A stretch of 55,549 nt of DNA from Syntrophales bacterium (GCA_028712885.1 JAQTPK010000014.1:1-55549); one strand, 5' to 3'. Shown: positions 702 to 42,141, counted from the stretch's first letter. Notes: generated by a model not told the origin, from the sequence alone. Numbers and translations: made by a program.

Positions 702-797
702 CTGCCGCCCCTTATGAATATTGTTTCAAGTATCATGGCGGATTTGATCGGCCGCCTTGAAGATATGGAAAAGCAGTCATTCAGGAAAGGAGAAAGC

Positions 798-1166
798 ATG
801 GAACGGATTCTGGTTGTGGACGATGAAGTCGAGATTCTCGAAAGCTTGAGAGAATTTCTCACCTCTATAAACTACGAAGTCCACACTGCCGCCAACGGCT
901 CGGATGCCATCAGGAAGGTCGAAGATGTAAAGCCGGATGTTGTTCTTCTCGATATCATCATGCCGGGAATGGGCGGCTTCGATGTCCTGAAGAAAATAAG
1001 GGACATTGATCCTGATATTGGAATTATCATGGCTACCGCCGTTGCCGACGAGGAACTGGCAAGAAGGACTCTTAATCTGGGCGCATACGATTATATAACA
1101 AAGCCGTTCGACCTTGGCCGTGTTGAGGAGGTCGTGATGATCAAGATGGCGGAGCGAAGGGGTTGA
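798..1166 (+). CDS. Single-domain response regulator (CheY-like)
   Basis: A 122-residue receiver domain with no output domain. Acidic residues D8 and D9, the phospho-acceptor D52 (in VVLLDIIMPGMGG), T80 and K102 (in YITKPF) are all present, so it should accept phosphate from a histidine kinase. The start at 798 is preferred over 714 because a strong AGGAAAGGAG lies just upstream and the receiver fold begins at once with MERILVVDDE. The likely partner is the large PAS histidine kinase that starts 94 bases downstream, which has no receiver of its own. With no DNA-binding domain it probably acts by protein contact or as a phosphorelay intermediate. Confidence 0.9.
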   Translation: MERILVVDDEVEILESLREFLTSINYEVHTAANGSDAIRKVEDVKPDVVLLDIIMPGMGGFDVLKKIRDIDPDIGIIMATAVADEELARRTLNLGAYDYITKPFDLGRVEEVVMIKMAERRG

Positions 1167-1260
1167 GGCGATTACAGGCCGGATCAATGTGAGCAGCCTG
1201 CCGGAGAGCAATAACGCCCTTATTGACTGATGTCGGATATCCCGGCGGAGAAGAACGAGA

Positions 1261-4200: not shown

Positions 4201-5094
4201 GGAAAGGCGGTCAGGATGCTGAAGGGCGAATTGAAGTCGCCTTACGAGTACCGGATAATAGACCGGTACGGCCAGACCAGGTGGCTCGTGGAAACCGTCG
4301 CGTCAATTGATTTCCAGGGGAGAAAAGCAACGCTCGGCGGCACAATGGACATCACGGAAAAGAAATTGCTGGAGCAGCAACTGGACAATACCCGGGAGAT
4401 GCTGATGCAGTCGGAGAAACTCGCGGCCATAGGCAAACTGTCGGCGGGAGTCGTCCACGAGATCCTTAATCCCCTGAACGTTATTTCCATGAGGCTGCAG
4501 CTGTTGGAAAAAACGGAGATCCTTTCGGAAAAAGCCAGGAACGCCCTGGAAATCTGCACCGCCCAGGTAGAGCGTATCGTTAAGATCACAAGGAATATCA
4601 ATCAGTTTTCCCGCATTTCGACACGAAATGTCGTGCAGGGCAATTTCAATGAATCGGCGGAACGAGTTCTTATGCTGATGGAACCTAAACTGAAGACGAA
4701 TAATGCGACTGTAGAGAGGGCATATGCGTATGATCTGCCTCTCGTGCCGATGGATATATCCCGGATTGAGCAGGTAATCCTGAATCTGGTCAACAATGCT
4801 CTCGATGCAATGAGCGGCAGGGAAGGAAAGAAGATCAGGGCATGTACGTTCTTGAAAGAATCGGACGGCAAAAAGTTTGTGGTGGCGTCATTCAGTGACA
4901 ACGGAACGGGAATCCATCCGGATGACATGAGAAAAATATTTGATCCATTCTTTACGACGAAAGGTCCGGACAAAGGGACCGGTCTCGGCCTCTCCGTCTC
5001 CTATGGAATCATCAAGGACCACAACGGCAGGATATGGGCCGAAAACAATGAATGGGGAGGGGCGAGTTTCTTCATCGAGCTGCCGATTCATTAA
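1261..5094 (+). CDS. Multi-PAS sensor histidine kinase (eight PAS domains)
   Basis: A 1277-residue kinase with no clear membrane segment, so probably cytoplasmic. Eight PAS/PAC units can be counted in series, beginning near residues 38, 160, 285, 415, 540, 670, 800 and 925. Several begin with the typical YRSIFENA or YRNILEDM pattern and end with DITxxKxxE linkers. The fifth resembles a PAS_3 fold. A HisKA domain follows, with the phospho-accepting His at 1066 (VVHEILNPLN). The HATPase_c domain has an N-box (NLVNNALDAM, about 1174), DNGTGI and GTGLGLSVSYG (about 1238). Such arrays sense redox, light or small ligands through haem or flavin, but no ligand can be read from the sequence. The ribosome-binding site at 1261 is weak; an internal ATG at 1342 also precedes the first PAS domain. 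The probable output is the receiver encoded just upstream. Confidence 0.9.
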   Translation: MKAKKHNDRHEIKKKDSLLFFSRTGKRMKNRMHPEMFRSIVESAGDSIYLVDRDCRYLFINSAHLLRLGMSNEDVTGKSYGEFHTKRQAKEFERRVNEVFETGKKAQHEHRSRRDQRYFLRTFSPLKNPSDGEVIGVTVVSKDITDIKRAESALQKSEEKYRSIFENAVVGIFQTSPEGKLLNSNTAFARMYGYQNPRDLAAEIEDVGRQLYADDRDRRKVVKILMKQGSVGPCEFPVRHRNGSIFWISMTARAVRNSTGRLLYYEGMNVDVTESRLAAEKTRESEERWRQLFNAMPSGVAVLDAVDGGRDFIIKDFNAAGEKIEGIPGKDILGRPVTEAFPGVRAFGILDVFERVWKTGHPEYLPASLYQDGRNPGSWRENWVFKLPGGEIVAIYNDITGRKRIEEQLRASEEKHRGIIENMDEGYHEVNLAGSLTFFNESFRKMMGYSRQELPGMNYRKYAADEENAKKIYQAYNEVYRTGKRLEWFEWEIARKDGAKRTLMVTANLKRDREGRPSGFSGIVNDITEIKKAEQDLRQSEAILAEAEKIAHLGSAEVNFETGKVKWSDEHYRIWGYQPGEVKPSLELMINALHPADREIMAQAIVDEIEEKHCLDVEVRVVRPNGDVRFVRCISNTHRSAEGKAMRILGTAQDITDRKQMEERLKVSEEKYRNILEDMKDGYWEVDLRGNMTFCNPVLPEFLGYSGDEVIGMSYRAYMDPETAETVRESFQSVYRNDKPKMARYKITRKDGTQAIVETSVSLRKSKGGAAVGFQGIMRDITGRVKNEQALRQSRDYLQKLNDALGDAVATFKFPDRTIEYANRAAMDMSGYTGDEIFGRNAGILYPDEEQYLKVGDILADAMKKGKEVVRFETVLKRKTGETFPVQVTATFIKNGGVSRIITVSQDISLRRRAEESLRAAEELYRTLATNSQTAIYIVQDGKIRFTNPYLLQYSGYSEEELMGVEIEKFIHPEDRKMVRGKAVRMLKGELKSPYEYRIIDRYGQTRWLVETVASIDFQGRKATLGGTMDITEKKLLEQQLDNTREMLMQSEKLAAIGKLSAGVVHEILNPLNVISMRLQLLEKTEILSEKARNALEICTAQVERIVKITRNINQFSRISTRNVVQGNFNESAERVLMLMEPKLKTNNATVERAYAYDLPLVPMDISRIEQVILNLVNNALDAMSGREGKKIRACTFLKESDGKKFVVASFSDNGTGIHPDDMRKIFDPFFTTKGPDKGTGLGLSVSYGIIKDHNGRIWAENNEWGGASFFIELPIH

Positions 5095-5235: not shown

Positions 5236-5514
5236 ATGGCAAAAGACCCGGGACTCGGCAAGAAAATCGTCGCGACTGTCCTCAGCGTCAAGGGAGAGTG
5301 CAGCGCCGGCCACCAGCCTGGCGAGGCATTCGAGATCAGCTGCCACGATACCGGCGGGCTGTGCGGATTTTTTTATCATGACATTTTTCCGGCCCTCTCC
5401 ACGTTCCAGTTCGGAGGAAATCTCCCCTGGTGGGAAGGAGATACGATCCAGGTCCAGTGTCCAGACAGTGACAATCTCGTCGTGATGAAACTGGAGCGGT
5501 CGGACCGGGAATGA
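5236..5514 (+). CDS. TIGR04076 family protein
   Basis: A 92-residue protein of the TIGR04076 family, whose function is unknown. The family hallmarks are present: VKGECSAGHQPGEAF near the N-terminus, GLCGFFYHDIFP in the middle, LPWWEGD, and a late CPDSDN. The conserved Cys and His residues suggest metal binding or redox chemistry. The start at 5236 has GAGGAG ten bases upstream; an in-frame start at 5209 would add nine residues before the family's usual N-terminus. Its stop overlaps the start of the acid phosphatase gene by four bases, so the two are probably translated together. Confidence 0.8.
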   Translation: MAKDPGLGKKIVATVLSVKGECSAGHQPGEAFEISCHDTGGLCGFFYHDIFPALSTFQFGGNLPWWEGDTIQVQCPDSDNLVVMKLERSDRE

Positions 5515-6365
5515 AAAAGCCGCCCGCAATTTTACTGCACTGGATTCTGCCGGCGCTGGCATGCGTCCTGATGCTGTCAGGATGCGCGGGCATTCAGTCT
5601 CACGCCCGCCCTGCGCCCGTTCCGGATATCGCGCCGGGTTTCCCTGCCGGTTATCTTCCCCCTGATCTTCTCCCGAACAGCCGGGCCCTGCTGAATCCGC
5701 CTCCTGCGGAAGACAGCCCCGCTTTCGCTCTTGACCGGAAAATCGCCGCCGAAGCGCTGACCCTGCGGGGTACGCCGCGCTGGAAGCTGGCGGTCGAGGA
5801 TGCGAACCTGAAATTCCCCCGCGCCGCCGGCGCCTTTGCCTGCGCTGTTCAGGTCCGGATTTCCGAAAAGGAAACGCCGCGTCTCTATACGCTCCTGCGG
5901 CGCACAATGACGGATGCCGGCTTTTCCGCCTATTCCGCACAGAACCATTACAAGCGGCCCCGCCCGTTCATCGTAAACCGGGAACCAAGCTGCACCCCGG
6001 ATGAAGAAAATTTCCTTTCGCAATACGGATCCTACCCTTCAGGGCACACCTCCATCGGCTGGGCCTGGGCGCTTATTCTCGCCGAGATCGCGCCCGGACG
6101 GACGAATGAAATCCTCGGCCGAGGCCGGGCATTCGGCGAAAGCCGCATTATCTGCGGCGTCCACTGGCGCAGCGATGTGAATGCCGGTTTCCTGGTGGGC
6201 GCGGGCGTCGTCGCCCGCCTGCATGCCGATCCCGTCTTTCAGGCCGACCTGGAAGCGGCGAAAGCCGAACTGGCCGCTGCACGCGCAAAAGGGATTCCCC
6301 CGCTGCGGGACTGCGCCGCGGAGAGGGCGGCGCTCTCCTTTAAGCTTTTCCCGGCCGGAAAATAG
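5511..6365 (+). CDS. Class A acid phosphatase-like lipoprotein (PAP2), copy 1
   Basis: A 284-residue PAP2-superfamily protein closest to bacterial class A non-specific acid phosphatases (PhoN type). The N-terminus is a lipoprotein signal ending in LSGCAG near residue 25, so it should be anchored in the periplasm. YPSGHTSIGW and SRIICGVHWRSD supply the motif 2 and motif 3 residues (Ser-Gly-His, and Arg/His/Asp). In motif 1 the usual Lys of KX6RP is Gln (AQNHYKRPRPF), while the Arg-Pro is kept. Known family members dephosphorylate nucleotides and sugar phosphates through a phospho-His intermediate; losing the Lys should weaken phosphate binding. The gene overlaps the TIGR04076 gene, and a close paralog follows 81 bases later. 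Confidence 0.88.
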   Translation: MKKPPAILLHWILPALACVLMLSGCAGIQSHARPAPVPDIAPGFPAGYLPPDLLPNSRALLNPPPAEDSPAFALDRKIAAEALTLRGTPRWKLAVEDANLKFPRAAGAFACAVQVRISEKETPRLYTLLRRTMTDAGFSAYSAQNHYKRPRPFIVNREPSCTPDEENFLSQYGSYPSGHTSIGWAWALILAEIAPGRTNEILGRGRAFGESRIICGVHWRSDVNAGFLVGAGVVARLHADPVFQADLEAAKAELAAARAKGIPPLRDCAAERAALSFKLFPAGK

Positions 6366-6446
6366 TATCAGCCAGGGAGACCCGTTCAATTATGAAAAAA
6401 GTTTTACGATAATAATCTTGATGCAACTCGAGGCGGTTTGACCGTT

Positions 6447-7301
6447 ATGAGCAGGTTTCTTCTTATGCTTCGGCATGGGTTTCTGGTTGCGCCGGCATGC
6501 GTCTTCATCTTTTCGGGCTGCGCCGAAATGAAATATTATTACGGCCATGTTCCGGAAATCGCCCCGGGCTTCCTGGCCGGCTATCTGGAAGCCGAATCGC
6601 TTCCGAACAGCCTGAGCCTGGTGAATCCCCCCCCCGAAACAAGAAGCCATGCTTTCGAACTGGACTTGACAATATACGGCGCCTCCAAGGGTTTTCGGGG
6701 CACGCCGCGCTGGAAGCAGGCTGTCAAGGATACCAATCTCGCCTTTCCCGGAGCCGCATACGCCTTCTCCTGCGCCCTTAACGCACCGATTTCCGAGCAT
6801 GAAACGCCGCATCTTTATATGCTCATGAGGCGGGCTATGACTGACGCGGTGCTCTCGACCCGTTCTGTTAAAGAGTTCTATAAACGACCGCCTCCATTTG
6901 TTTTCAGCATGGATCCGACCTGCACCCCGGATGACGAAAAGCCGCTTTCCGAAATCAGTTCTTATCCATCGAAACACGCATGCATCGGCTGGACCTGGGC
7001 GCTCATTCTCGCCGAGCTGGCGCCCGAGCGCGGCGACATGATCCTCGAGCGGGGCCGGTCTTTCGCGGAAAGCCGCGTCGTCTGCGGAACGCACTGGCAG
7101 AGCGATATCGATGCCGGGTTCATAATAGGAGCCGGGGTGGTTGCCAGACTGCTTGCCGATTCTGAATTCCGGGAGGATTTTAATGCCGCCAGGATAGAAA
7201 TGGCAGCCGTCCGCGCAAACGGACTCTTCCCGCAGCACGACTGCAATATGGAAAAGGCCGCGCTGTCGTTAAAACTCCACCCGTCAAGGCATAATCGATA
7301 A
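6447..7301 (+). CDS. Class A acid phosphatase-like lipoprotein (PAP2), copy 2
   Basis: A 284-residue paralog of the upstream protein, the same length when the ATG at 6447 is used (AGGCGG lies ten bases before it; a TTG at 6438 sits too close to that site). It has a lipoprotein signal (FSGCAE). Motif 1 keeps the Lys but the Arg of RP is Pro (KEFYKRPPPF). Motif 2 is PSKH in place of PSGH, so the oxyanion Gly is Lys. Motif 3 (SRVVCGTHWQSD) is intact. With two active-site changes it may be catalytically dead, binding-only or altered in specificity. Copy 1 has lost a different residue. Together the two genes look like a tandem duplication that has diverged. Confidence 0.85.
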   Translation: MSRFLLMLRHGFLVAPACVFIFSGCAEMKYYYGHVPEIAPGFLAGYLEAESLPNSLSLVNPPPETRSHAFELDLTIYGASKGFRGTPRWKQAVKDTNLAFPGAAYAFSCALNAPISEHETPHLYMLMRRAMTDAVLSTRSVKEFYKRPPPFVFSMDPTCTPDDEKPLSEISSYPSKHACIGWTWALILAELAPERGDMILERGRSFAESRVVCGTHWQSDIDAGFIIGAGVVARLLADSEFREDFNAARIEMAAVRANGLFPQHDCNMEKAALSLKLHPSRHNR

Positions 7302-8103: not shown

Positions 8104-8973
8104 ATGAAAACATCCCTTCTTCTTTCCGGTATCCCGAAAATCCGCTCCTTTATTTATATTTTGGCGGCATTTCTTACGGCCGCCGGAGCGGCCATAGCTC
8201 CCGCCGAGGCAGGACCCGCGATGCCGGCGGCGATCAGCCGGGCAATGGAACAACCGGCGCTTGCCGGGGATGCATCGCTGGGCTCCCTGTTTCCCGACGA
8301 ATTAGAAATCATCTCCAAATCCGGGGGCAACCTCGATCAGAAGGCGCGATTGAAGCTTGCAGCCGTGCGGCGGGACCACGCCAAGGCGCTCTTCAGGTTT
8401 CATAGGAGCAGGCAGCGCGAGGACGCCCTGGAGCTTGCCCTGCGCTACGCGAATTCCGCGCGGGAGCTCGATCCTTCCGATCCGCAGGGGCACCTCCTCG
8501 CCGGGATCATCTATTCGGAAATGGGGGAGTATCTCTTCGCGGGCATCAAGGCCGTCCAGTCGTTCGAACGAGCCGTAACGCTCGCCCCCGGCGTCCCATC
8601 GACAAGAATCCTTCTGGCTTTCGCTTATCTGAAAGAAAATGACCGCGACGACGCCCTGGAGCAGTTCGAGGAGGCGCTGCGACTGGACAGCTCTCTCGTC
8701 TCGCCGCGGATCGTCGGCCCGATGAACCTCTGCTACATCGCCCTCGGCAAGACCCAGATCGGCGAAGATTTCTACCGGCAGCTGCTGGCGAAAAGACCTG
8801 AAACGCCTTATCTGGCCCTCTCCAGGGCCGTGCTGCTCAAGCACGACCGCCGGCTGGACGAAGCGAGGGGCGAACTGAACAGGGTGATCGGCTGGCGGCA
8901 TGCCTCTGGCGAAGACAAGCGGTACGCCCGCGAGCTGCTGCGCAAGATCGTTGAAATGGAAGGGGGGCGGTAA
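8104..8973 (+). CDS. Exported TPR-repeat protein
   Basis: A 289-residue protein with an N-terminal signal peptide (hydrophobic stretch IRSFIYILAAFLTAAGAAIA, cleavage near APAEAG). It is followed by helical tetratricopeptide-like repeats at about residues 110-270. Typical TPR patterns are ALRYANSARELDPSDPQGHL, SFERAVTLAPGVPSTRILL and ALEQFEEALRLDSSLVSPRI. TPR proteins act as scaffolds for protein complexes, so a periplasmic adaptor role is likely. The ATG at 8104 has GGAG seven bases before it and gives a clean signal peptide. It is the first gene of an eight-gene set of exported proteins; the next gene begins one base after its stop. Confidence 0.8.
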   Translation: MKTSLLLSGIPKIRSFIYILAAFLTAAGAAIAPAEAGPAMPAAISRAMEQPALAGDASLGSLFPDELEIISKSGGNLDQKARLKLAAVRRDHAKALFRFHRSRQREDALELALRYANSARELDPSDPQGHLLAGIIYSEMGEYLFAGIKAVQSFERAVTLAPGVPSTRILLAFAYLKENDRDDALEQFEEALRLDSSLVSPRIVGPMNLCYIALGKTQIGEDFYRQLLAKRPETPYLALSRAVLLKHDRRLDEARGELNRVIGWRHASGEDKRYARELLRKIVEMEGGR

Positions 8974-8974
8974 G

Positions 8975-11900
8975 ATGACGCACAAGCATGAACGCCGGCA
9001 CGCCCCTGTTCTCGATATCGCGCGAAGCGCACTCTTTCCCGCCCTGCTCTCTCTCGCTGCGCTGGTCCTTTCCGTTTCTCCGCTTCCCGCCCGGGCAAAC
9101 GACCTCGGCCGGCTCCTGGAAGAAGGCGAGCGGATCGATGCCCGGATCGACACCGTCGAGCGAGACAGGCACGAAGCGCTGATTACTTACTTCAGCGAGG
9201 CCGTGCAGAACATCGATCCGGAATACCGGGAGAAATTCGTCCGGAAGGCGCGCACCGAACTGCCGCGCGACCGGCGAGATTATCGCGCGGAGCTTGCGCG
9301 GAGGCAGGCGGCCCTCGACCGGAAACTCTCCGCGGCGGCGGGAGAATATCAGCCTCTCGTCAGGAATTTCGAAATCGGAGAAATCGAAGAGAAGAATCTG
9401 CTTGTCCTGAGAGACCGGAAAATCAAAGAAGCTCACCGCAAGATCAAGGACCGGAAAAAACGGCTGCAGGAAGTCTGCCGGATTCAGGACGCCTATGCCG
9501 CCAGGAGCAGGCAACTGGTCGCTCAATACCGCCAGCCCCTGATCGATAGACTGATCGCAGACGTCAACGCCGGCCTGCCGGAGGGGAAAAGAATCGGGCA
9601 AACGCTCGGGCAGGGCCTGTACAAAACGGATGCCGCCGGGAAGCGCATCCTGAACCCGGATCATCGGGGATGGACCGGTGATATCGATTTCGGCGGGTCC
9701 GAGGTCGCCGCCAAGAGACTGGAGCGCCTGCTGAAAGCCGTGGGGATGGCGCCCGAGAATCATCCGGGGTATCTCGACGCCAAGCGGCTGGAGATCACCG
9801 TCAACAAGACGGGCGCGGCGGATGTTCCGGGCGGCGAATTCCATGAAATGCAGGCCGGGGTCGACGCCCTTTCGAAGGAAACCTACGTGTCGTGCTCGAT
9901 GGGCTCCGAACAGGCCGGCAGGTCGTATGTCGAAGTAAACGACCACTACAAGAAGGCCTCGGGCGGCCTGCGGGAGCCTCCGGAGAAGCTCTTTCAACGC
10001 AGGGACAAACTGCAGGGGATGGCCAAGGGGGCTCTGAAGGCGGGGTTCGGGGGAAAACCCAAGCCTGGCGCTGCGCAGCCCGATGCCGGGGAACACGCCA
10101 AAAAGCTCGGGGCCGCGCTGAAAAGGGCCGGCTTCGACGGCACGGCCGAAGATTTCAAGCGGCAGCTTGAAATCATCAAGACCAGTCCCAAGGTCGCCGA
10201 CGTCATGTTCGACCGCAACGAGATGGCCGTCTTCCAGAAGGCTTGCCGGGAAACCCTGGAGCTTGCGCTCGACGAGGCGGGGCAACGGGCTCAGAAAGAA
10301 ATGCGCGCGCTGCAGGGAGAGATTTCCCGCACGGACAACGAGGCCGCCGGCCTGGAGAAAAAAGCCGCGGAGGCGAAAAGCCGCGGCGATGCGCGCGCCG
10401 CCGGGGAACTCGACCGCCGGGCGAAGGAGCGCAAATCGCGGGCGGCGGAGCTCCGGAAACAGGAGACAGACTCCCGGGTCAAGATGAAAGCCGCCGACGC
10501 GGCGCGCCGTAAAATCGTGACGGGCGAACCGATCCATGTCAAAGAGAAAATAACCCCTCTGGAAAGCGGCCGAAAGCCCGCCAAGGGGGCCCCGGGCTTG
10601 GTCGGAGCAAAGACCTATATGAAATTCATCGACCTCAAGGGGTGGACGGAGGACTTCATCAAGGGGGTCGACCAGGCGGTCGCGGAAGAGCGCGAAGGCG
10701 ACAGCAGCCTGAAAACCTGGGGCAAGTCGGTCGGCTATGTCCTGGCGGAATCCACGGGGATCCCCTCGATTTATGAATTATACCGGGCCGAAGTTGCGGA
10801 GGCGGATCGAAGGATCAAGGAGGAAATCGATCAGATCGATTTTTCCAGCCTGGATGAAAAGGCCAGGAATGAACTGATCAAACAGATTACGGTGGTGGAG
10901 ACGTTCACCGCGGCCTCCCGCATGGGCAAAAAGCTTGGAATGGGCATGGCCGAGGGACTGGCCACCGCCCCGGTCCAGGCGGGCGCCATGCTGGGTGAAC
11001 TGTATGCGAAGAAGGACCTGGAAGACTCGGAGGCCGCCTCGAAGGCCATGGGCGCCAGGCTAATCCAATACAATGCCCGGAAGATGAAGCGGCTTCAGGC
11101 GCTCATGGACGACATCCGCGTCAACGGGTTCGACGACGCCAAGGCGCTGGAAAGAGACACGCTGGTCCGGTATTTTTACGCTTTCAGAGAAAAGCATCAG
11201 GCAGACCGGGAGCTTTCGGTTTTCGCCGAGCGCTGGGTCCAGGCCATCGAGTCCCACCAAACCCCGGGCATCGGCGCCATTGCGGCGCAAAAACGGGGTC
11301 AGGCGATTTTCGACCCCAAAACCGGACGGCAGACCGTCCCGCTCAAGCCGGGGGATATCTGCGTCGTCCAGGCGGCCAGAACCGGACGCTGGGACAAGCA
11401 ACACGAAATCCAGTGGCTGGTGAACGGGGTGAGTTTCAGGACCGCGAAGGGCGACGACCCCCGGGCCGCCGAGCTTCGGTTCGACTCGACCGGCATGGAA
11501 CCGGGCGATTGCGCCGTGGCGGTGCGCATCATCGACGTCTCGGGCCGGACGCGGAAGATCCTCGCCCACCGGAGCGTGTACTTGACCCTGGGAGAGGACC
11601 TGCCCGTCATGGCGCCTTTCCGGGTCCGCTCCGCCCTCAAGGATTATGACGGCCCGCCGCTGCCGCCATCGGTCCAGAACGGAGATATCCTTGCCTTCCA
11701 GGCGGATCTGAAGCATCCGGACGGGGAGGCTCAGCCGGCGCAACTCGTCTGGCAGGTGTACGACCAGGCCGGCAAACCCATCCAGGAACTCGGGAAGCAG
11801 GAGCAGATCCTGGCGGCGGGCGAAACCAGAAACCATCGCTTCAAGATCCGGCTGGACGACCTGGGCGAAGGTGGCTATGCGGTCCGGCTGACCCACTTTT

Positions 11901-13591
11901 TCACCGCGCGGCCCGACGGGAAAACGCAGGCCGAGGCCCGCTTCCGGGTCTCCCAGCCGGTCCGGATCGAGCGGGTCCTCGTGACGGACGACCCCGGCGA
12001 CCAGACCCACAAGCCCGTTCTGTCGCCCGATCAGGCGCCCCTCCTCTACGCCCACTACAGGCTGAGCCCGGGCGTGAAGAAGGCAAACATCATGCTCACG
12101 GCGAAAGACGCAGACGGCCGCGTGATCGAAACCGTTGCCGTGGAGCGTCCGCGCCCCGGCGAGACACCCCCTTACCGGGTAGGGCTGGCCGTACCGAACG
12201 CGAAAGTTCCCATCGGCGCGGAGATCATCTTCGAGGCCGAGATCACCGCCGGCGGCGGCAAGCGGCACGCCGCCCGGACCGCCTTCAGGAAGGAGGCCTA
12301 CCGGCTGGTCCTGAATGTTCCCGAAACCCTGAGATCGGGCGAAAGCAAACCCTTCTCCATCACCGTTCCGAAAAGCTTCCGGGGTCCCTTTACGGTCGAT
12401 GTGCGCGCCACCGGGCGCGGCTTGAGCGCCGGCCATGCGCCGGGCAATTTGTCCGGAACCGTGGGTGGCATCGCCGCCGGGACGGCGGAGATCGGCAATC
12501 TTACGGTGAGCGTTACGGATGCGGACGGGAAGAAGGCCTCCGCTCAGGCCAGGGTGGAAATACAACCCGCGGGAAAAGTATTTTCGATACCGACTCCGCC
12601 TGCGCAAAAGTTTTCTCCCCCTCCCGTTGCGCCGCAATTGCCCCCCTCTACCCCGGGGCCCATATCCCCTTCGCATTCGGGAATCGAGAGCGCTTCTTCT
12701 TCCCAACAGAAGCCAATGCCCGAACCACAGGTGAAGGCGCACCAGAAGAAGAGCGAACCCCAAACCGTCTATTGGGTTGTCAACACGTCGACCTGGAGCA
12801 GACACAGCCAGGCGACAACCATGCGCGCCCAGGTCACAACCGGAAATCAGCCGCCCGTCACCGGCTTCTCCCAGCCGGTCTCCGGCGCGGCCGGTCACTA
12901 CCATGTCGTCGTGAAGGCGTACGGCACTTTGGATCCGCGCGAGGCGCAGCAGATCGCAAACGGCATCAACCAGGGAAAATACCGTGATGTATTTCCAAGA
13001 ACCCGCCATGATGTGTCGGGGCATATCGGCAAGGGATTGGAGGGGTCGCCGCTGGTGAACTACGGTCCCGGCGTCAAGGCCCTGGCCGGGCCGGCGCAGG
13101 CAGCCCGGGCGACGGCGGAAAGCGCCGGGAAGAAATCGTCTGCTTTCCGCAACGAGGCCGCCAGGCGCCTCAATGCACTTGCCGCCGGCCTCGAGGCGGG
13201 GGTCAGAAAGATGGCGGGAGACATCAGCGTTCTGCAGTATTCCATCGACAATTCCAAAAAAGCGCTCGCCCAAGATCTGGCCGAATTGAAGCGAATCGCC
13301 GCGCCGCTGGGCGCCAAGGCGCGGACCATGACGAAAGAGCAGTTCATGGCCAGGCACGGCGCCGAGTTCCGGCAGGCCGCTCAAATGGAATCAAGATACA
13401 ACGAAAAAACCAAGGCGCACAACCGCCTGGTCGAAAAGCGCAACGGCTTGATCAAAAGGCAAAAGGAAATTGCGGCGCTGTATGACGCCGTTTCCGCCGC
13501 ATGGCGCAAGGGGGACGTTGAAAGATGCATTGAAATCGCAAACGGTTCGCCCTTGGCGAAAGAATTCGGCTACAAGCCGCTATCTAAATGA
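8975..13591 (+). CDS. Giant exported coiled-coil and beta-domain protein, unknown function
   Basis: A 1538-residue protein with a signal peptide (about residues 15-40, ending near ARAND) that I do not recognise as any named family. Layers that can be seen: charged helical and coiled-coil segments (about 45-180), a compact region with GWTGDIDFGGSE and conserved-looking Gly/Asp residues (about 225-320), a long Ala/Lys/Glu coiled coil (about 430-530), and a helical region (about 540-770). Then come several beta-rich, Ig-like segments with Asp/Gly turns (about 780-1190), a Pro/Ser linker (about 1195-1255), a small domain with repeated Trp/Tyr, and a C-terminal coiled coil (about 1370-1510). It looks like an extended periplasmic or surface fibre or scaffold. 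It follows the TPR gene by one base and precedes the MORN/WG gene by 13. Confidence 0.75.
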   Translation: MTHKHERRHAPVLDIARSALFPALLSLAALVLSVSPLPARANDLGRLLEEGERIDARIDTVERDRHEALITYFSEAVQNIDPEYREKFVRKARTELPRDRRDYRAELARRQAALDRKLSAAAGEYQPLVRNFEIGEIEEKNLLVLRDRKIKEAHRKIKDRKKRLQEVCRIQDAYAARSRQLVAQYRQPLIDRLIADVNAGLPEGKRIGQTLGQGLYKTDAAGKRILNPDHRGWTGDIDFGGSEVAAKRLERLLKAVGMAPENHPGYLDAKRLEITVNKTGAADVPGGEFHEMQAGVDALSKETYVSCSMGSEQAGRSYVEVNDHYKKASGGLREPPEKLFQRRDKLQGMAKGALKAGFGGKPKPGAAQPDAGEHAKKLGAALKRAGFDGTAEDFKRQLEIIKTSPKVADVMFDRNEMAVFQKACRETLELALDEAGQRAQKEMRALQGEISRTDNEAAGLEKKAAEAKSRGDARAAGELDRRAKERKSRAAELRKQETDSRVKMKAADAARRKIVTGEPIHVKEKITPLESGRKPAKGAPGLVGAKTYMKFIDLKGWTEDFIKGVDQAVAEEREGDSSLKTWGKSVGYVLAESTGIPSIYELYRAEVAEADRRIKEEIDQIDFSSLDEKARNELIKQITVVETFTAASRMGKKLGMGMAEGLATAPVQAGAMLGELYAKKDLEDSEAASKAMGARLIQYNARKMKRLQALMDDIRVNGFDDAKALERDTLVRYFYAFREKHQADRELSVFAERWVQAIESHQTPGIGAIAAQKRGQAIFDPKTGRQTVPLKPGDICVVQAARTGRWDKQHEIQWLVNGVSFRTAKGDDPRAAELRFDSTGMEPGDCAVAVRIIDVSGRTRKILAHRSVYLTLGEDLPVMAPFRVRSALKDYDGPPLPPSVQNGDILAFQADLKHPDGEAQPAQLVWQVYDQAGKPIQELGKQEQILAAGETRNHRFKIRLDDLGEGGYAVRLTHFFTARPDGKTQAEARFRVSQPVRIERVLVTDDPGDQTHKPVLSPDQAPLLYAHYRLSPGVKKANIMLTAKDADGRVIETVAVERPRPGETPPYRVGLAVPNAKVPIGAEIIFEAEITAGGGKRHAARTAFRKEAYRLVLNVPETLRSGESKPFSITVPKSFRGPFTVDVRATGRGLSAGHAPGNLSGTVGGIAAGTAEIGNLTVSVTDADGKKASAQARVEIQPAGKVFSIPTPPAQKFSPPPVAPQLPPSTPGPISPSHSGIESASSSQQKPMPEPQVKAHQKKSEPQTVYWVVNTSTWSRHSQATTMRAQVTTGNQPPVTGFSQPVSGAAGHYHVVVKAYGTLDPREAQQIANGINQGKYRDVFPRTRHDVSGHIGKGLEGSPLVNYGPGVKALAGPAQAARATAESAGKKSSAFRNEAARRLNALAAGLEAGVRKMAGDISVLQYSIDNSKKALAQDLAELKRIAAPLGAKARTMTKEQFMARHGAEFRQAAQMESRYNEKTKAHNRLVEKRNGLIKRQKEIAALYDAVSAAWRKGDVERCIEIANGSPLAKEFGYKPLSK

Positions 13592-13604
13592 ATTGGGGGT
13601 GTCC

Positions 13605-16004
13605 ATGAGAAATCTGAGATCATCGGCGGCGATCGCCGTCATCATGATTCTGGCCTGTGCAGGATTGGCGGCAGGCGCGGTCGCGGATAGCGGAATTGTC
13701 GACCAGAACGGATGCAAGCATACAGGCGCGCCGAAGCCGGGCATCACCGTAACCTGGTCGGGCGGCTGCGTCAACGGCTCCGCCGAAGGCAGCGGCACCC
13801 AGGTCTGGTTCAAGAACGGGGTTGAAACATCGCGCTATGTCGGACCGATGCGGGCGGGCGCCCGGCACGGCAAGGGCATCTACACCTGGAAAAGCGGGGA
13901 CCGCTACGAAGGGGATTTTGCCGATAACAAAAGAACGGGCAAGGGCGTTTACACCTGGCCGAGCGGAAGCCGCCACGAAGGGGACTTTGTCGACGGCAAG
14001 CGGACCGGGATGGGGGTTTATGTGACCAAGGCCGGCTTGCGCAAGGAAGGGGAATTCCTGGACGGGGCCTATGTCCCGGACCTCGACATCAAATTTCACA
14101 GGTCGGTGTCCGGCAAAGCCATGACGAAGAAGAGTTACAGGAAGGACTCCGTCAAATACGGCATGGTGAACAATAAACTGGAATTTCTCGCACCGCCGGT
14201 CTTTAAAGATTTGAGTCCCTATATTGAAGATCGCGCTCGGGCGCTTTTCAAAGAAAAGTGGGGATTTCTGGGTGTGAAGGGCGACTATGCCGTTCCGCCT
14301 TCTTTCGATTACGCAGGCCACTTTTCGGAGGGGCTGGCGAGCGTCTGTGTCGGCGACCGCTGGGGCTATATCGACCGGCAAGGCAATTGGATCATCCGGC
14401 CTGAATTCGAATACGGAGCAGGTTTTTCTGAAGGCATGGCGGTGGTGCGCAAAGGCCGGAAATTCGGATTTATAAAAAAAGACGGAACATACGCCGTGGA
14501 GCCGCGATTCCAGGATGCAACCGCTTTTTCCGAAGGACTGGCCGCCGTGAAGATGGGGGGCAAGTGGGGGTTCATCGATCCATCGGGAAAAATGATCATC
14601 AAGCCTGACCTCGTGAGCAAACCAGGTAGATTCAAAGCGGGGGTGGCGATTGTCCCTGTTAGACGGGGCAAGAATGTGATTGACAAAACCGGCAAAATAA
14701 TCATCGACAGCCAGAGGGATAAAAATTGGGAGTGCACTGTCCGTCAAATAACAAATGAAGAGTTTTCTGCTGATGGGCTTGCTCGGTTCATCCAATACAA
14801 AGACCCTGCAACCGGACGAAAATATAACAATTCGGAACTGATCTATGGCTGTTTTACTCCTAAGGGGGAAGTTGTTGACTGCGGCGGCGATAATAGAGGC
14901 CGTACGAGCTTCTCCGGATTTCTTCCGTTAAAGGTGATCAAAGAGGGGAGAAAGTACTTTCTGGCGGATGAAACGGGCAAAAAGACCCTGGATCTCTCAA
15001 GCCTGGAGCAGAAGATCCCGTGGGCGGCAGGCGTGAGGACAATACCTGAATTCGAATATCTCGGGGGCGGCGTTGTTCATTATTATGAAGCGAGGAAAGA
15101 CAAGAACGCAGTTTTTGTGGACGGGAAGTGGATTGCCCCCGCCCCCTCGCTGAAGCATCGGATGTCCCCTTTATCCTTCGTCGAGAAGTGTCGCCATGCC
15201 GTGGTCTTCAAAACAGAAGAAGATGGCAGGTGCACTATTTACAAAAGCGACGGCAAATGGGCAAGAGTGCCCGTCGAAGAGCTTGTTCCCAACTTGGCGG
15301 AACGTCTGAAATATTATGAATCCTTCGAATCGGCCAAGGCAGCGCCGGCGTCGCCTGGCGCCGCGAAGGATCCCCAAGCCGCCGCCTCGGCCGACCGGCC
15401 GGGAAGCTGGGACTGGAAGTACGCCTACGGCCGCCCCGGAGATAAAGGCGCCGGGCAGTACATTGTGAAAACCGAGAACGCGGAGGTCTTCTTTGAAGAC
15501 CCCGTCTATTACTGGAAACCCGGGACGGGGGGCGTCAAGCAGGGGGCAAAGCCGGGCGTGATCGTTTACCGGTTCCGCTGGGATAAAACGGCGGCCGCGG
15601 CCAGGCTTTTCATCAATCTGCCCACCTTTCACTGGGCATACAGCAGGGGGCATAACAAGTTGTACGGATCCAGAGACGGCGCCGCCTGGGTCGAACTGAT
15701 GGACGTCCCGCCGCCCGCATTCGGAAAGGCCAGTTCCGGTGTTTTCGACCGGAATCTTCCGGATCGGCTGCTGGGGGGCAAAGAGCTGTGGCTCAAGGTG
15801 GAGCTGGACGCCTTCGGCCCCGGGGTCGGACGGGGGCGGGTGTTTGCCAATACCGCGCAGGCCAACCGCTTTCAGAAAGGCTCGAATGCAGAGACATTCA
15901 GACTGGAGGTCCGTTTTGCCCCGAAAACGGACGCTCAGCCGCCCGCGGCCGCGGCGCCTCAGGAACGGAAGGTTCCCGCGCCCAAGGGACGGGTGCTGGA
16001 TTGA
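13605..16004 (+). CDS. Exported MORN- and WG-repeat protein with C-terminal beta-sandwich-like domain
   Basis: A 799-residue protein. A signal peptide (residues 1-28, ending in AGAVADS) is followed by about four MORN repeats (residues 70-155; GKGIYTW, YEGDF, GKGVYTW, HEGDF, KEGEF). About five WG repeats follow (residues 185-390; KWGFLG, RWGYIDRQG, KFGFIKKDG, KWGFIDPSG with SEGLA spacers). After an Ala/Pro linker near 610-640 comes a Trp- and Tyr-rich C-terminal domain (about 640-780) that could be a carbohydrate-binding-like beta-sandwich. MORN and WG modules are beta repeats that usually serve in binding. The start at 13605 follows GGGGGT and gives the signal peptide; upstream in-frame codons run into the previous gene. 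It lies in the middle of the exported-protein operon. Confidence 0.85.
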   Translation: MRNLRSSAAIAVIMILACAGLAAGAVADSGIVDQNGCKHTGAPKPGITVTWSGGCVNGSAEGSGTQVWFKNGVETSRYVGPMRAGARHGKGIYTWKSGDRYEGDFADNKRTGKGVYTWPSGSRHEGDFVDGKRTGMGVYVTKAGLRKEGEFLDGAYVPDLDIKFHRSVSGKAMTKKSYRKDSVKYGMVNNKLEFLAPPVFKDLSPYIEDRARALFKEKWGFLGVKGDYAVPPSFDYAGHFSEGLASVCVGDRWGYIDRQGNWIIRPEFEYGAGFSEGMAVVRKGRKFGFIKKDGTYAVEPRFQDATAFSEGLAAVKMGGKWGFIDPSGKMIIKPDLVSKPGRFKAGVAIVPVRRGKNVIDKTGKIIIDSQRDKNWECTVRQITNEEFSADGLARFIQYKDPATGRKYNNSELIYGCFTPKGEVVDCGGDNRGRTSFSGFLPLKVIKEGRKYFLADETGKKTLDLSSLEQKIPWAAGVRTIPEFEYLGGGVVHYYEARKDKNAVFVDGKWIAPAPSLKHRMSPLSFVEKCRHAVVFKTEEDGRCTIYKSDGKWARVPVEELVPNLAERLKYYESFESAKAAPASPGAAKDPQAAASADRPGSWDWKYAYGRPGDKGAGQYIVKTENAEVFFEDPVYYWKPGTGGVKQGAKPGVIVYRFRWDKTAAAARLFINLPTFHWAYSRGHNKLYGSRDGAAWVELMDVPPPAFGKASSGVFDRNLPDRLLGGKELWLKVELDAFGPGVGRGRVFANTAQANRFQKGSNAETFRLEVRFAPKTDAQPPAAAAPQERKVPAPKGRVLD

Positions 16005-16012
16005 GGAGGAAC

Positions 16013-16639
16013 ATGATGGAAAAAAGAAAGGCAACAAGAGCGTTGATGCCGCTGACCATCGTCCTCAGCGCGCTTGTTCTGATATCCTGCGCCTCGGCGC
16101 CGCCGCCGATCATTGTCAAGAGTGAGGGCCCTTACGCGATCGGCGACCGGGGCCCCGCGGGCGGCTGGATCATCTACGACAAGGGGGACGATTCCCAAGG
16201 CTGGAGATACCTGGAAGCCGCGCCCGAGGATCAGACGCCGGCGAGCTGGCGCCATCAGGGCCTGGTTAAATGGGGCTGCCACGGGACATCCATACCGGAA
16301 GCCCGCCGCGCCGCCGTCGGCGCCGGCATGAAAAATACCAAGGCCATATTGAAGGAATGCGATGAACCGGACACCGCCGCGCGGAAGTGCGCCGAATATC
16401 GCGGCGGCGGGAAGAGCGACTGGTTTTTGCCGTCCCTGGACGAACTGAACCTGATCTATACGCATCTGTTCAAACAGGGACTCGGGGGCCTCCGTCTCGG
16501 CGAGTACTGGAGTTCCTCCGAAACCGGCAACGGCCGCTACGCCTGGAACATCAATTTCAGCAACGGCAAACAGCTCTACTGCAATAAGTACCCCGCTTAT
16601 CGCGTTCGCGCCGTCCGGGCCTTCATGGAGAAAAAGTAA
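16013..16639 (+). CDS. DUF1566-domain lipoprotein
   Basis: A 208-residue lipoprotein. The signal sequence ends in LVLISCAS, giving a lipidated Cys near residue 26. The rest is a DUF1566 (Lcl C-terminal-like) fold: GPAGGWIIYDKGDDSQGWRY early, then SDWFLPSLDELNLIY, YWSSSE, AWNINFSNG and a final RVRAVRAF. The domain is common in surface lipoproteins of Deltaproteobacteria and Leptospira and its role is unknown; the fold is related to C-type-lectin-like or formylglycine-enzyme-like cores. Translation starts at 16013 behind GAGGAGG, eight bases after the MORN/WG stop, so the genes are probably in one operon. Confidence 0.85.
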   Translation: MMEKRKATRALMPLTIVLSALVLISCASAPPPIIVKSEGPYAIGDRGPAGGWIIYDKGDDSQGWRYLEAAPEDQTPASWRHQGLVKWGCHGTSIPEARRAAVGAGMKNTKAILKECDEPDTAARKCAEYRGGGKSDWFLPSLDELNLIYTHLFKQGLGGLRLGEYWSSSETGNGRYAWNINFSNGKQLYCNKYPAYRVRAVRAFMEKK

Positions 16640-16683
16640 AAACAACAGGCGGCGATCAAGCCATCGAGACGAGGACAGGGGAT

Positions 16684-17709
16684 ATGAAATTTATTATCCG
16701 GCGAATCCTGATGGTCTCCCTGATGCTGTGGCTGCCCGCGGCAGGAGCGCTCGCGGCGCAGGACGCGCCGGTTCCGGGTCCCTATGAGATCCAGCGCCGC
16801 ATCGCCGCAAAGAGCGGTTTCGATGTCGCCGCGCTGTGGCGCAATCTGGGGATTTCCTCCGAGCTGGAAACCGTTTATTCGCGGGTCGGCATCGTCCCGG
16901 ACGAGCCCGCGGTCTTCGACCATTGCGAAGATTGTGAGGCCGAGGTCCGGACCCTGCGGTGGCGGGGGTGCCCTGCCGGCACAGTCGCTTTGAGAATCCG
17001 CGATCGACGCGGTTTCTGCCGGTTTCTCTTCTTCAGGACGGTCCTGACCGGGAAGGCACCGGGCCGTTCGCCGTGGCGCTTCATCGGACACGCCGATCAT
17101 GATTTTTCCCGAGAGGATCCGCCGGACTGCCGGACGGAGACACTGGGGGGACGGCGGTACGTCGTCATGACCGCGCAGGGCGCCTCCGGCACGGGCGTTT
17201 CCCTGGCGTACGAGCGCCGGTACGAGATCGCCTCCGACCGCGTCAGGGAGGTTCTGAGCCTGCCCGCGAAAGGTCACGAGTGCGCCGATGCCTCCTCGCT
17301 CTGCCGCCGGTTCGCAGCGCGCGTCGTCGAGGCGGACCGGGGCGGCAACCGCATCCGGGTCGATTTCAGCGTCGAATACCTCGGCGACCGCTTTCTCCTG
17401 GACGGCAGGACCTTCGAGGAATTTCCTCTGTTCACGCTGCGGCGGCGTGCGGTTTACGTCCGGGAGGGACCGCTGCGGGACTATGTTCTGTCTCCCCTGG
17501 AATCGGAGATCACCTCCGAGGAAGTCCGGCGGGTCCACGGCATCGGGGACCTCGCCTGCGGGGATTTCATCCGCCTCCATCACGGCGATCTCGAGCGGTT
17601 TGCCGCCGAAGCGGGCTCCGACGAAAAGGCCTGGCTGAAGCGCTACCTGTCCGGCTGCGAACCCACTCCTGAGCGGGAGCGGCTGCTCGGGTTCTTCGCG
17701 AGGCAATAG
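16684..17709 (+). CDS. Exported Cys-rich protein of unknown function
   Basis: A 341-residue protein with a clear signal peptide (residues 1-26, ending ALAAQDA). No known family is recognised. The mature part contains about ten Cys residues, several as close pairs (HCEDCE, ECADASSLC), which suggests disulfide bonds and an oxidising, periplasmic location. The central part is beta-rich with many Arg. The C-terminal 70 residues look helical (SEEVRRVHGIGDLACGDF). It lies 44 bases after the DUF1566 lipoprotein and 8 bases before the ankyrin gene. Confidence 0.7.
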   Translation: MKFIIRRILMVSLMLWLPAAGALAAQDAPVPGPYEIQRRIAAKSGFDVAALWRNLGISSELETVYSRVGIVPDEPAVFDHCEDCEAEVRTLRWRGCPAGTVALRIRDRRGFCRFLFFRTVLTGKAPGRSPWRFIGHADHDFSREDPPDCRTETLGGRRYVVMTAQGASGTGVSLAYERRYEIASDRVREVLSLPAKGHECADASSLCRRFAARVVEADRGGNRIRVDFSVEYLGDRFLLDGRTFEEFPLFTLRRRAVYVREGPLRDYVLSPLESEITSEEVRRVHGIGDLACGDFIRLHHGDLERFAAEAGSDEKAWLKRYLSGCEPTPERERLLGFFARQ

Positions 17710-17717
17710 AGGTCGCC

Positions 17718-18662
17718 ATGTCGCGGAAAATCCAAGCATGGTTTCCGGCCGTTTCCCTCGCTGCCGCCGGCCTGATGGCCCTTCTGGCAACAGCCGCCTG
17801 CGCGTTCGGCGACCGCGATCAACGAATGATCACGGCGGCCGGGCTGGGAGACGCCGCCCGTGTCGAGAGTCTGCTCAAGCGGGGCGCCGACGTCAATGCG
17901 CGCGAAACCGGCGGACAGCTCACCTTCATGCGCTATACCGCCCTGATGCGGGCGGCGGGCAAGGGGCATACGGCTGCGGTCCGGGTCCTTCTCGCCCGTG
18001 GAGCGGACATCCATGCCGGAGACTCCGAAGGGCGCACCGCATTGATGATGGCGGCGCAGGGGGGCCACCAGGCGATTGCCGAAATGCTCGTCGGCGCCGG
18101 CGCAAATATTCATGCCCGATCCAGGCAGGACGACACGGCCCTGATTGCGGCGGCCCGCGGCGGGCACGAAGGAACGATCCGGTGGCTCCTGAAAAGGCGC
18201 GCGGCGGTGAACGCGGCCAATGACTTGGGCGAAACCGCCCTCATGGCGGCGGCGCTGAGGGGCCATGCCCGCGCCGTTGAGGCCCTGCTGGGCGGCGGGG
18301 CCCGCACGGAAATGATCGACGAAATGGGCAACACGGCTCTGATCCTGGCGAGCACAGGGGTGTTGTACGAGGGAGGCGGATCGGCGGAGACTGTCGGGGT
18401 GCTCCTGGAGCACGGCGCGGATGTGAACCGGAGCAACGACGAGGGAGTCACTCCCCTGATCGGGGCGGCCGCCCGCGGCAACATTGAAGTAGTGCGCGTC
18501 CTGCTTGCGGCCGGCGCGGACCGCGAGGCCCGGATCTTTTTCGGCCGGGACAGGGGCGAGACCGCCCTGTCCCTGGCCATCCGCAACAAACACACTGAAA
18601 CGGCGCGGATCCTGCAAACCCCGCCCCCGAAGGCGGACAGCCGGGGGCGGCTGAAGAAGTGA
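17718..18662 (+). CDS. Exported ankyrin-repeat protein
   Basis: A 314-residue protein with an N-terminal signal peptide (residues 1-34, ending near CAFGDRD) and about seven ankyrin repeats from residue 38 to 300. Typical repeat cores are AARVESLLKRGADVNARE, TALMRAAGKGHTAAVRVLLA, TALIAAARGGHEGTIRWLL and TPLIGAAARGNIEVVRVLLA. Exported bacterial ankyrin proteins usually bind a partner protein; some protect catalases or act as antitoxins. No toxin is visible next to it. Its position between two exported unknown proteins suggests a shared periplasmic complex. Start and spacing (8 bases after the previous stop) fit an operon. Confidence 0.88.
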   Translation: MSRKIQAWFPAVSLAAAGLMALLATAACAFGDRDQRMITAAGLGDAARVESLLKRGADVNARETGGQLTFMRYTALMRAAGKGHTAAVRVLLARGADIHAGDSEGRTALMMAAQGGHQAIAEMLVGAGANIHARSRQDDTALIAAARGGHEGTIRWLLKRRAAVNAANDLGETALMAAALRGHARAVEALLGGGARTEMIDEMGNTALILASTGVLYEGGGSAETVGVLLEHGADVNRSNDEGVTPLIGAAARGNIEVVRVLLAAGADREARIFFGRDRGETALSLAIRNKHTETARILQTPPPKADSRGRLKK

Positions 18663-18672
18663 GAAAGGGAAA

Positions 18673-19572
18673 ATGAAGACACTTCCAATATGTATGCTTG
18701 CATTAGCAATGCTGCTCACGGCTGTGCCGGCCCCGGCCGATGTCGCCCCCGATCCGCTCAACCAGGGGGTGACGCCGGCGCGCCGGGACAGCCGCGTGCA
18801 GATGGTTTCCCAGGACGTGATCATCCGTCTAGGCGGCGACTGGTGCCTCGTGGAGGCGGATTTCCTGCTCCATAACCGCTCCAAAGCACCCGCGGCCATG
18901 GAAGTCGGTTTCCCCACAGGCTACAGGGACGAAGTGAAGGGACTGAAGGTCCGGCGAAACGGGCAACCAGTGGAGACGAAGAAATCCATCGAACAGGAGA
19001 TTACGGAACCGGACAGGGACCCGATCACCTACCATTGGACCCTGTGGAACATGCGGTTCGCCCCCGGAGAAAAGACCAGGCTCCTGGTGAGCTACCGGGT
19101 CAAGCCCCGGAAAAACCACGACTACCTCATCACGCCCTACCGGCGGTCTCTCGACCGGATCCGGGAGGACGCGGCGGACCGAAAGCCCATGCCCCCCGAG
19201 GTGCGGCGCATCATCGACGGCATGGTCAGCTATTCCACCGGTTACATCATGGTGACCGGCGCGGGGTGGTACGATCCCATTGAGAAGGCGACCGTCACGG
19301 TAAGACACCCGAAAGGTGCCGGCGCCGTCCGTTGGCTGGAACCGTCGAATCGCTTCACCTCCTCAGCGGAGGGGATTGAGTGGCGGTTTGAGTTCATCAA
19401 ACCCGATTTCGACATCAAAGTGGAATTCAGCGATACATGGACGATCGAGGATGAGATGGCCGCAGTGGAAAAGGCCGCCGGGACTGCGGGAAAAAACCAG
19501 GGGCTGAACGATCATCTGCGCTTTCTGAAGAAGATGAAAAAATGCCTGGCCTCGGGAAACTGCGGGGAATGA
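18673..19572 (+). CDS. Exported DUF4424-like protein
   Basis: A 299-residue protein with a signal peptide (residues 1-22, ending in VPAPADVAPD). The mature N-terminal half follows a pattern seen in DUF4424-like and vault-inter-alpha-trypsin-like beta domains: VQMVSQDVIIRLGGDW, then VEADFLLHNRSK and MEVGFPTG. Later comes LWNMRFAPGEKTRLLVSYRV. The C-terminal part has a FDIKVEF strand and a short charged helix. These domains are beta-sandwiches of unknown role. The family assignment is from memory of the pattern and is tentative. It is ten bases after the ankyrin gene and has a GAAAGGG ribosome-binding region. Confidence 0.6.
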   Translation: MKTLPICMLALAMLLTAVPAPADVAPDPLNQGVTPARRDSRVQMVSQDVIIRLGGDWCLVEADFLLHNRSKAPAAMEVGFPTGYRDEVKGLKVRRNGQPVETKKSIEQEITEPDRDPITYHWTLWNMRFAPGEKTRLLVSYRVKPRKNHDYLITPYRRSLDRIREDAADRKPMPPEVRRIIDGMVSYSTGYIMVTGAGWYDPIEKATVTVRHPKGAGAVRWLEPSNRFTSSAEGIEWRFEFIKPDFDIKVEFSDTWTIEDEMAAVEKAAGTAGKNQGLNDHLRFLKKMKKCLASGNCGE

Positions 19573-19609
19573 CCTTTTCCTGAATTTTTCCAGAATAGAA
19601 GGAGTGATT

Positions 19610-20107
19610 ATGTTGAAGTACGAGCTGCGTAACAGGAGGCGCTTGCGCACGTCTTTTCCGCATGTTCTGGCCGTGTCCGCCCTCCTCGTTATCTTGTTTC
19701 CCGCCGGTTCCGCCGGAGCGGTGATGCCGCCGGCGCATTACGCGAGCGTCGCCGGGGCCTCGAAGATCAAGGCCATAGCCGTGGTTAAATCCATCCAGGT
19801 CATGGAACGCACAAAACGCAGCACATACAAGCAGGTTGTGTTTGAATTGAAGCGCCCCTTCAGCGACGGCGTCCCGAAGACTTTCAGCGGAACGTGCTAT
19901 TCGGTCGATCACGCCTGGCAGGAGCCGGGCGCGGGCGGGACGATCTACCACTACCCCGTGGAGGGTGCGACTGTTTATGTAACGGTCGCCGCCGAAGGAG
20001 GGACCATTACCAGCTACACCGTCCTGAACGAGGCCGCGGAGAGAGAATTCATGCAGAACCCCGGAAAAATCCGCTACGGCATGGGGAGTGCATATCTGGA
20101 GAGGTAG
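19610..20107 (+). CDS. Exported protein of unknown function
   Basis: A 165-residue protein with an Arg-rich N-terminus and a long signal-like hydrophobic stretch (VLAVSALLVILFPAGSAGAV, residues 20-40). The mature part is about 125 residues, beta-rich, with one Cys (GTCYSVDHAW). It has no recognised family. The ATG at 19610 has AAGGAG five bases upstream and is preferred over the GTG at 19604, which overlaps that site. It is the last member of the exported-protein run, 37 bases after the DUF4424-like gene. The next gene on this strand begins almost 600 bases later. Confidence 0.65.
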   Translation: MLKYELRNRRRLRTSFPHVLAVSALLVILFPAGSAGAVMPPAHYASVAGASKIKAIAVVKSIQVMERTKRSTYKQVVFELKRPFSDGVPKTFSGTCYSVDHAWQEPGAGGTIYHYPVEGATVYVTVAAEGGTITSYTVLNEAAEREFMQNPGKIRYGMGSAYLER

Positions 20108-35256: not shown

Positions 35257-35258
35257 TA

Positions 35259-35293
35259 AAAAAGGAGGCTGCGCAGGAAGCAGCCTCCTTTTT
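35259..35293 (+). terminator. Strong terminator upstream of pilM
   Basis: AAAAAGGAGGCTGC pairs with GCAGCCTCCTTTTT around a seven-base loop. The A and T tracts make it work in either direction. No gene reads into it from the left, so it ends either a short leader RNA or a small RNA, about 140 bases before the likely pilM start. A further hairpin (CGCCGG/CCGGCG) follows immediately. Confidence 0.8.
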
Positions 35294-42135: not shown

Positions 42136-42141
42136 GGTCAA

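Follow-up and report, generated by a model that had tools for sequence, protein, structure and literature searches.

Between positions 8104 and 20107 of a 55,549-nucleotide stretch of DNA from a Syntrophales bacterium (GCA_028712885.1 JAQTPK010000014.1:1-55549; hereafter the window), eight consecutive plus-strand genes, g1 to g8, encode proteins that all appear to be exported. The question raised by this locus is whether the genes form one system and, if so, of what kind. On the first point, sequence comparison indicates that the eight genes are a real conserved cluster, present in several families of the phylum and in two of its classes, Desulfobulbia and Desulfobacteria. On the second, the answer that we favour, while giving it slightly less than an even chance, is that the locus encodes a polymorphic adhesin/effector display system, exported and spread by horizontal transfer; this is the function we infer for it.

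Conservation of the cluster

The genes follow one another at gaps of 1, 13, 8, 44, 8, 10 and 37 bases. The first, g1 (8104-8973), encodes an exported TPR protein of 289 residues (Pfam TPR_19, 7e-11), and is followed by g2 (8975-13591), which encodes an exported mosaic giant of 1538 residues, and by g3 (13605-16004), which encodes an exported MORN+WG protein (MORN, 4e-16; WG, 9e-42). Beyond these lie g4 (16013-16639) for a lipoprotein with an Lcl_C (DUF1566) domain (9e-11), g5 (16684-17709) for an exported cysteine-containing protein, g6 (17718-18662) for an exported ankyrin-repeat protein (Ank_2, 2e-45), g7 (18673-19572) for an exported DUF4424-like protein (3e-4), and g8 (19610-20107) for a further exported protein. 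The products of g2, g5 and g8 have no match above cut-off in Pfam or NCBIfam. The Lcl_C score of g4, 42.5 bits, lies above the Pfam gathering score of 34.9; against the full NCBIfam adhesin Lcl model, g4 reaches 38 bits where 500 are required. The modules named in the first-pass annotation were therefore recovered by Pfam for g1, g3, g4 and g6, while its DUF4424 assignment for g7 was found only below cut-off (20.4 bits against a gathering score of 27).

At the start of all eight proteins a charged n-region is followed by a hydrophobic run (mean Kyte-Doolittle value 2.2-3.2 over 12 residues), in agreement with the earlier claim of eight closely spaced plus-strand genes for exported proteins. 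These signal-peptide calls come from a crude hydrophobicity and lipobox rule, not from SignalP, and the same rule flags 12 of the 38 other open reading frames (ORFs) in the window, inner-membrane anchors among them. The g4 protein has a clear lipobox (LISC), g3 a possible one (ILAC) and g6 a weak one (TAAC).

With the whole giant as query, 297 genomes of the phylum yielded two relatives besides the window's own genome, and a three-row profile of its best-conserved part found three further loci in a scan of public genomes and three loci among 100 genomes of the order. Eight further loci carry the giant's core, all in the same phylum (Desulfobacterota; Thermodesulfobacteriota at NCBI): L004 in Desulfurivibrio sp. 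AMeS2 (Desulfobulbia; L013 is the same record, which assigns the window to this phylum), L012 in Desulfobotulus alkaliphilus (Desulfobacteria), L010 in Deltaproteobacteria bacterium HGW-Deltaproteobacteria-15, L011 in UBA5756, L005 (G208), L021 (G384), L022 (G375) and L023 (G309). With the window's own genome counted, the core occurs in 4 of the 100 genomes of the order and clearly in 3 of 395 in the phylum. One candidate, in G029 (E 4.5e-4), was rejected as a relative: the match covers 53 positions, and the protein starts like a pilin.

At least one partner gene is retained at seven of the eight further loci. In L010, the order is TPR protein, giant, a repeat protein (Sel1/WD40), the g4-type Lcl_C lipoprotein, a small exported protein, a single ORF joining g5 and g6, and g7, so that six of the eight genes (g1, g2, g4, the fused g5+g6, and g7) stand together. 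L004 has the TPR protein, the giant, a WD40/PDZ protein, the same small exported protein, a g6-like ankyrin fragment and g7 before the contig ends, and thus keeps four. The first-pass annotation had asked whether at least four of the genes stay together in other Desulfobacterota, and these two loci answer that they do; the order kept in L010 also runs counter to the refutation that it had proposed, a gene order conserved in no relative. Shorter versions are found in L012 (TPR protein, giant, WD40 protein) and L011 (TPR protein, giant, WD40/PDZ protein, and a 264-residue protein), and other arrangements in L005 (a 754-residue N-terminal protein, the giant core, g8, two WD40 proteins of which one has Sel1 repeats, and g4), L022 (a small protein, g5, a WD40/PDZ protein, TPR protein, giant) and L023 (a WG protein, TPR protein, giant, and an ORF containing g8). 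L021 has the giant core (562-3033) and no operon partners. Its core sits on a 4-kb contig with transposase-like ORFs on both sides, a setting consistent with mobility.

A TPR homologue, about 28-34% identical to g1, lies immediately 5' of the giant in L004, L010, L011, L012, L022 and L023. At these six loci its stop codon and the start of the giant overlap by 4 bp; in the window the two genes are 1 bp apart. The g1-type TPR protein thus appears to be a near-universal partner of the giant. Homologues of g4 in L005 and L010 are 63% identical, g5 is 54-58% identical to L010 16182-17198 and L022 1373-2392, and g6 is 66-68% identical to the C-terminal half of L010 16182-18038. The g7 protein, at 60-66% identity to its homologues in L004 and L010, is among the best-conserved accessory proteins, and has no other match among 237 sampled genomes of the phylum. 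Finally, g8 is 51-59% identical to L005 14080-14652, adjoining the giant, and 48% identical to part of L023 12147-13466, near the giant. The small exported protein, which has no family and is absent from the window, lies at L004 8959-9504, L010 15570-16178 and L022 729-1307 (53-61% identity).

The accessory content does vary among the loci, as it might if the genes were a chance run of unrelated exported genes. That explanation is, however, highly improbable, because other families of the phylum share most of the gene order: L010 carries the same genes in the same order, the subsets found elsewhere overlap, and a C-terminal tag described below is nearly confined to the loci.

Scanning the inside of the locus for promoters and terminators yielded no consensus promoter and no strong terminator. 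This result is uninformative either way, since the scan gave fewer sites than shuffled sequence; a terminator-like match at 19563-19582 was discarded as evidence, shuffled sequence yielding more such matches. The G+C content of the locus is 62%, compared with 53% upstream and 57% downstream, and this elevation is consistent with acquisition.

Mosaic construction of the giant

The g2 product consists of an N-terminal helical part with an RGxxGDxD motif, a helical middle, four immunoglobulin (Ig)-like domains and a variable C-terminal part. Its conserved core (11261-12568, residues ~763-1198) is predicted to form four tandem beta domains resembling Ig, fibronectin type III (FnIII) and macroglobulin domains. 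BLAST among the giants and sliding identities place the conserved region at window residues ~765-1212, with unrelated flanks. The core is 43-63% identical to those of L004, L005, L010, L011 and L012, the 63% being to L010, while the first ~300-740 and last ~250 residues of the giants are exchanged between loci.

The exchange is clearest in L010. Against L004, its giant is 57-87% identical up to residue ~720 and 42-58% identical beyond, by sliding identities, whereas against L011 and the window the identity climbs from about 10-46% to about 50-75% past the same point. The nearest relative of L010 therefore switches at residues ~720-780, which differences in rate alone do not explain. The DNA behaves likewise: L004 and L010 are 79% identical over 2918 bp, covering the end of the TPR gene and the N-terminal half of the giant, and this similarity stops at L010 position 9949, while that of L010 to the window (70%) and to L011 (68%) begins at position 9854. 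The giants of L010 and L011 are in turn unrelated before residues ~296/349 and 46-49% identical afterwards. At the other end, the last ~300 residues of the L004 and L012 giants show no relationship to the corresponding part of L010, L011 and the window, and a C-terminal module of the window (12728-13090, residues 1252-1372) is shared with L010 and L011 (46% and 55% identity) and is not in L004 or L012. On these alignments, the giants are mosaics in which the Ig-like core is kept and both ends are swapped between loci. The L004 and L012 giants share 77% protein identity and 82% DNA identity over 4.2 kb; as they come from different classes, horizontal transfer is implied. Viral contigs searched with the core, both N-terminal types and the RGxxGDxD domain held no relatives, and tblastn of N-terminal parts against plasmids gave no match.

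An AlphaFold model of window residues 41-1220 shows the four beta-sandwich domains at residues ~763-1198 with a predicted local distance difference test (pLDDT) score of mostly 80-91, the N-terminal half being poor. With Foldseek, the beta domains match C3/alpha-2-macroglobulin at E 1e-12 with a low template-modelling score (TM-score), and VIA-align gives Z 10-11 on single beta domains; the matches of the core are to macroglobulin, FnIII and Ig-like arrays (C3, alpha-2-macroglobulin, RbmA, transglutaminase beta domains). The locus thus has in common with alpha-2-macroglobulin and complement C3 arrays, and with FnIII and Ig-like adhesins such as RbmA, its tandem beta-sandwich domains, but the likeness of the modelled fold is generic, with a low TM-score and no sequence match. 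A sequence search against solved structures with the core, the L005 N-terminal protein and the RGxxGDxD domain returned nothing significant.

The N-terminal part differs most. In the window, a helical/coiled-coil stretch (9095-9688, residues 41-238; predicted helices of moderate to low confidence), whose first ~100 residues are absent from L022 and L023 as alignment gaps, precedes the RGxxGDxD region (9689-10177), a putative nucleotidyltransferase-like region with the motifs RGWTGDIDF and RLEITVNK. The window region has homologues in L022 and L023 and a weak one in L028, and RG..GD.D is invariant across these four giants; other variants carry GSDRDV (L005), NTDRDV (L004, L010 and L012) or GTDSDY (L011). 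Nucleotidyltransferases have the motif [ST]DxD, and members of the superfamily are recognised by a fold with G[GS]...DxD and a third carboxylate. The RGxxGDxD pattern resembles the [ST]DxD motif and is offered as a lead only, two AlphaFold jobs having left the fold unconfirmed: pLDDT in the region was mostly under 50 in both (about 24-57 in the second), and Foldseek on the second model gave no match under E 1. L028 (G340) has only this region in common with the window giant and has none of the operon partners; its 1653-residue exported protein (9550-14511), with a FecR-like stretch seen by eye, belongs to a different giant family. Profile comparison of N-terminal types I-IV related only II and III, and solely beyond the first ~300 residues, and pairwise shuffles tied the window region to L022 and L028, with z at most 2.5 among other types. 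No single N-terminal family is therefore claimed for all giants.

These modules raise the question of whether the locus is a classic polymorphic toxin system, in which the nucleotidyltransferase-like N-terminal module would be the toxin and g5/g6 or other small exported proteins the immunity. Giants of polymorphic toxin and contact-dependent inhibition (CDI) type are likewise large, modular and exported; they keep a conserved region while exchanging their ends, and their occurrence is patchy and mobile (Zhang et al. 2012, PMC3482391). Systems of that kind also contain ankyrin, TPR, Sel1 and beta-propeller repeats (PMC3482391). Here, too, the terminal modules are swapped, RGxxGDxD or GSDRDV-type motifs occur in several variants, ankyrin immunity has precedents (PMC4686830, PMC3482391), and the L005 N-terminal protein, alone among the loci, has a PT-TG pre-toxin match (E 4e-4, under the Pfam cut-off). 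However, the signals are of Sec type only, no secretion leader is recognised, and Pfam, NCBIfam and PADLOC find no toxin domain; the nucleotidyltransferase reading was not confirmed by structure prediction; and both ends vary, the N-terminus most strikingly. Moreover, g4-g7 fail to co-vary with the N-terminal module, as cognate immunity would be expected to do: the window and L010 versions share 54-66% identity despite unrelated N-terminal modules, which argues against a simple toxin-immunity arrangement and for partners of the conserved core. An unrecognised small gene might still provide immunity, yet we regard a classic polymorphic toxin system as improbable.

The earlier statement that nothing here matches a described secretion, toxin or defence system holds for Pfam, NCBIfam and PADLOC. 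PADLOC matched only g6, through its ankyrin repeats, and no defence-system model otherwise; a PHROGs search gave nothing meaningful beyond ankyrin. The companion statement that the locus has no clear enzyme stands at the same level, but is not a conclusion that can be drawn, given the g2 motif and the weak PT-TG match in L005.

The gene-3 position and its C-terminal tag

The position occupied by g3 is filled at the different loci by unlike repeat proteins (MORN/WG, WD40, WD40+PDZ, Sel1+WD40) with a common C-terminal motif, (G/A/P)(R/T)(V/I)LD. In the window, g3 ends in PKGRVLD (GRVLD codons and stop, 15987-16004, plus strand). The corresponding ends are RGRVLD in L004, KGRVLD and KARILD in L005, KGRVLD in L010, KPRVLD and KGRVLD in L011, RGRILD in L012, and RGTVLD in L022. 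The g3 protein has no similarity to the WD40 proteins. Its C-terminal module (residues 601-799) is 60% identical to the separate 264-residue protein of L011 (8019-8813). Among the WD40 proteins the linker before the tag cannot be aligned, whereas the final R-(V/I)-L-D can.

A DNA-pattern scan of seven genomes for [GAP]R[VI]LD with an in-frame stop, short or antisense frames being set aside, found the tag in eight proteins of the loci; the only other carrier was an ABC-transporter-ATPase-like ORF in Desulfobotulus. From this distribution we infer that the tag may be a short linear recognition motif. Literature searches on the gene combination and on the tag found no description of either.

A proposed display system or an envelope complex

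The conserved unit is a TPR protein translationally coupled to the giant, which keeps its four Ig-like domains and exchanges its ends; a tagged repeat protein and varying sets of accessory exported proteins (Lcl_C lipoprotein, g5/ankyrin, DUF4424-like protein, g8) travel with the pair. On the reading that we favour, the TPR protein, the Ig-like array and the tagged repeat protein would be a display platform. The Ig-like array might be a periplasmic or surface stalk or scaffold that presents variable terminal modules, adhesive or effector, to partners or neighbouring cells. The TPR protein would help the giant to fold or be exported, and the repeat proteins would dock, through the C-terminal (V/I)LD peptide, on a receptor that they share within the system.

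The Lcl_C lipoprotein could provide glycan or ligand binding. The Legionella collagen-like adhesin Lcl, which likewise has this domain, binds sulphated glycosaminoglycans (PMC11162425). This is an analogy only, and g4 differs from that adhesin as a short lipoprotein in an operon, with no collagen repeats. For g5 and g6, the L010 fusion suggests that the two act together or physically associate. Periplasmic ankyrin proteins can inhibit partner enzymes, and in Bdellovibrio one such protein, Bd3460, guards the cell from its own endopeptidases (PMC4686830). The Bd3459/Bd3460 pair resembles g6 in that an exported periplasmic ankyrin protein is encoded beside its partner. This is again an analogy only, and unlike that pair the present locus has no recognised peptidase family and pairs its ankyrin protein with g5.

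Several points weigh against the display system: the locus encodes no route across the outer membrane, no terminal module of any giant was identified with confidence, the PT-TG match included, and the signal peptides were called by a simple rule. The same parts could instead serve the envelope of the producing cell itself, in a structural or sensory complex that acts as a periplasmic scaffold or senses stress and has no role towards other cells. All parts are exported and most are protein-binding repeats, the tag suggests ordered assembly, and g7 and g5 are conserved; but the patchy occurrence, transfer between classes and swapping of modules are unlike housekeeping envelope machinery, and we consider such a complex fairly improbable. 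The assembly round the giant that the first-pass annotation envisaged is thus upheld as a conserved exported cluster centred on the giant and made mostly of binding modules, but not as a fixed structural assembly, as the ends of the giant swap, the accessory genes vary and the occurrence is patchy.

The locus looks more like a contact or binding machine than like housekeeping, and appears to work most like a polymorphic exported adhesin/effector system, short of the full definition. A bolder and somewhat unlikely version would be a new exported machine of Desulfobacterota, in which the mosaic giant bears exchangeable enzymatic ends on an Ig-like stalk, and a receptor belonging to the system recognises a hitherto unknown C-terminal (R)(V/I)LD peptide that brings in the beta-propeller and WG/MORN partners. 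The cluster is of interest as a multi-gene system that is coherent, conserved and transferable, and whose hosts are central to sulphur cycling. Present on unrelated repeat proteins, the (V/I)LD motif can be put forward as a concrete hypothesis of a signal for recruitment or sorting, and the mosaic giant offers a route to new terminal modules, adhesive or toxic.

Elsewhere in the window, two tandem paralogous PAP2-family lipoproteins are encoded just 5' of the locus (5511-7301, plus strand). On the minus strand, a 785-residue protein (39787-42141) that has NHL beta-propeller repeats (3e-63) and starts with a hydrophobic, pilin/PilX-like stretch adjoins a cluster running from PilM (35232-36584) to a secretin (38185-39603), and is possibly a pilus-tip-type protein. 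At 1261-5094 on the plus strand lies a histidine kinase of 1277 residues with about six PAS domains.

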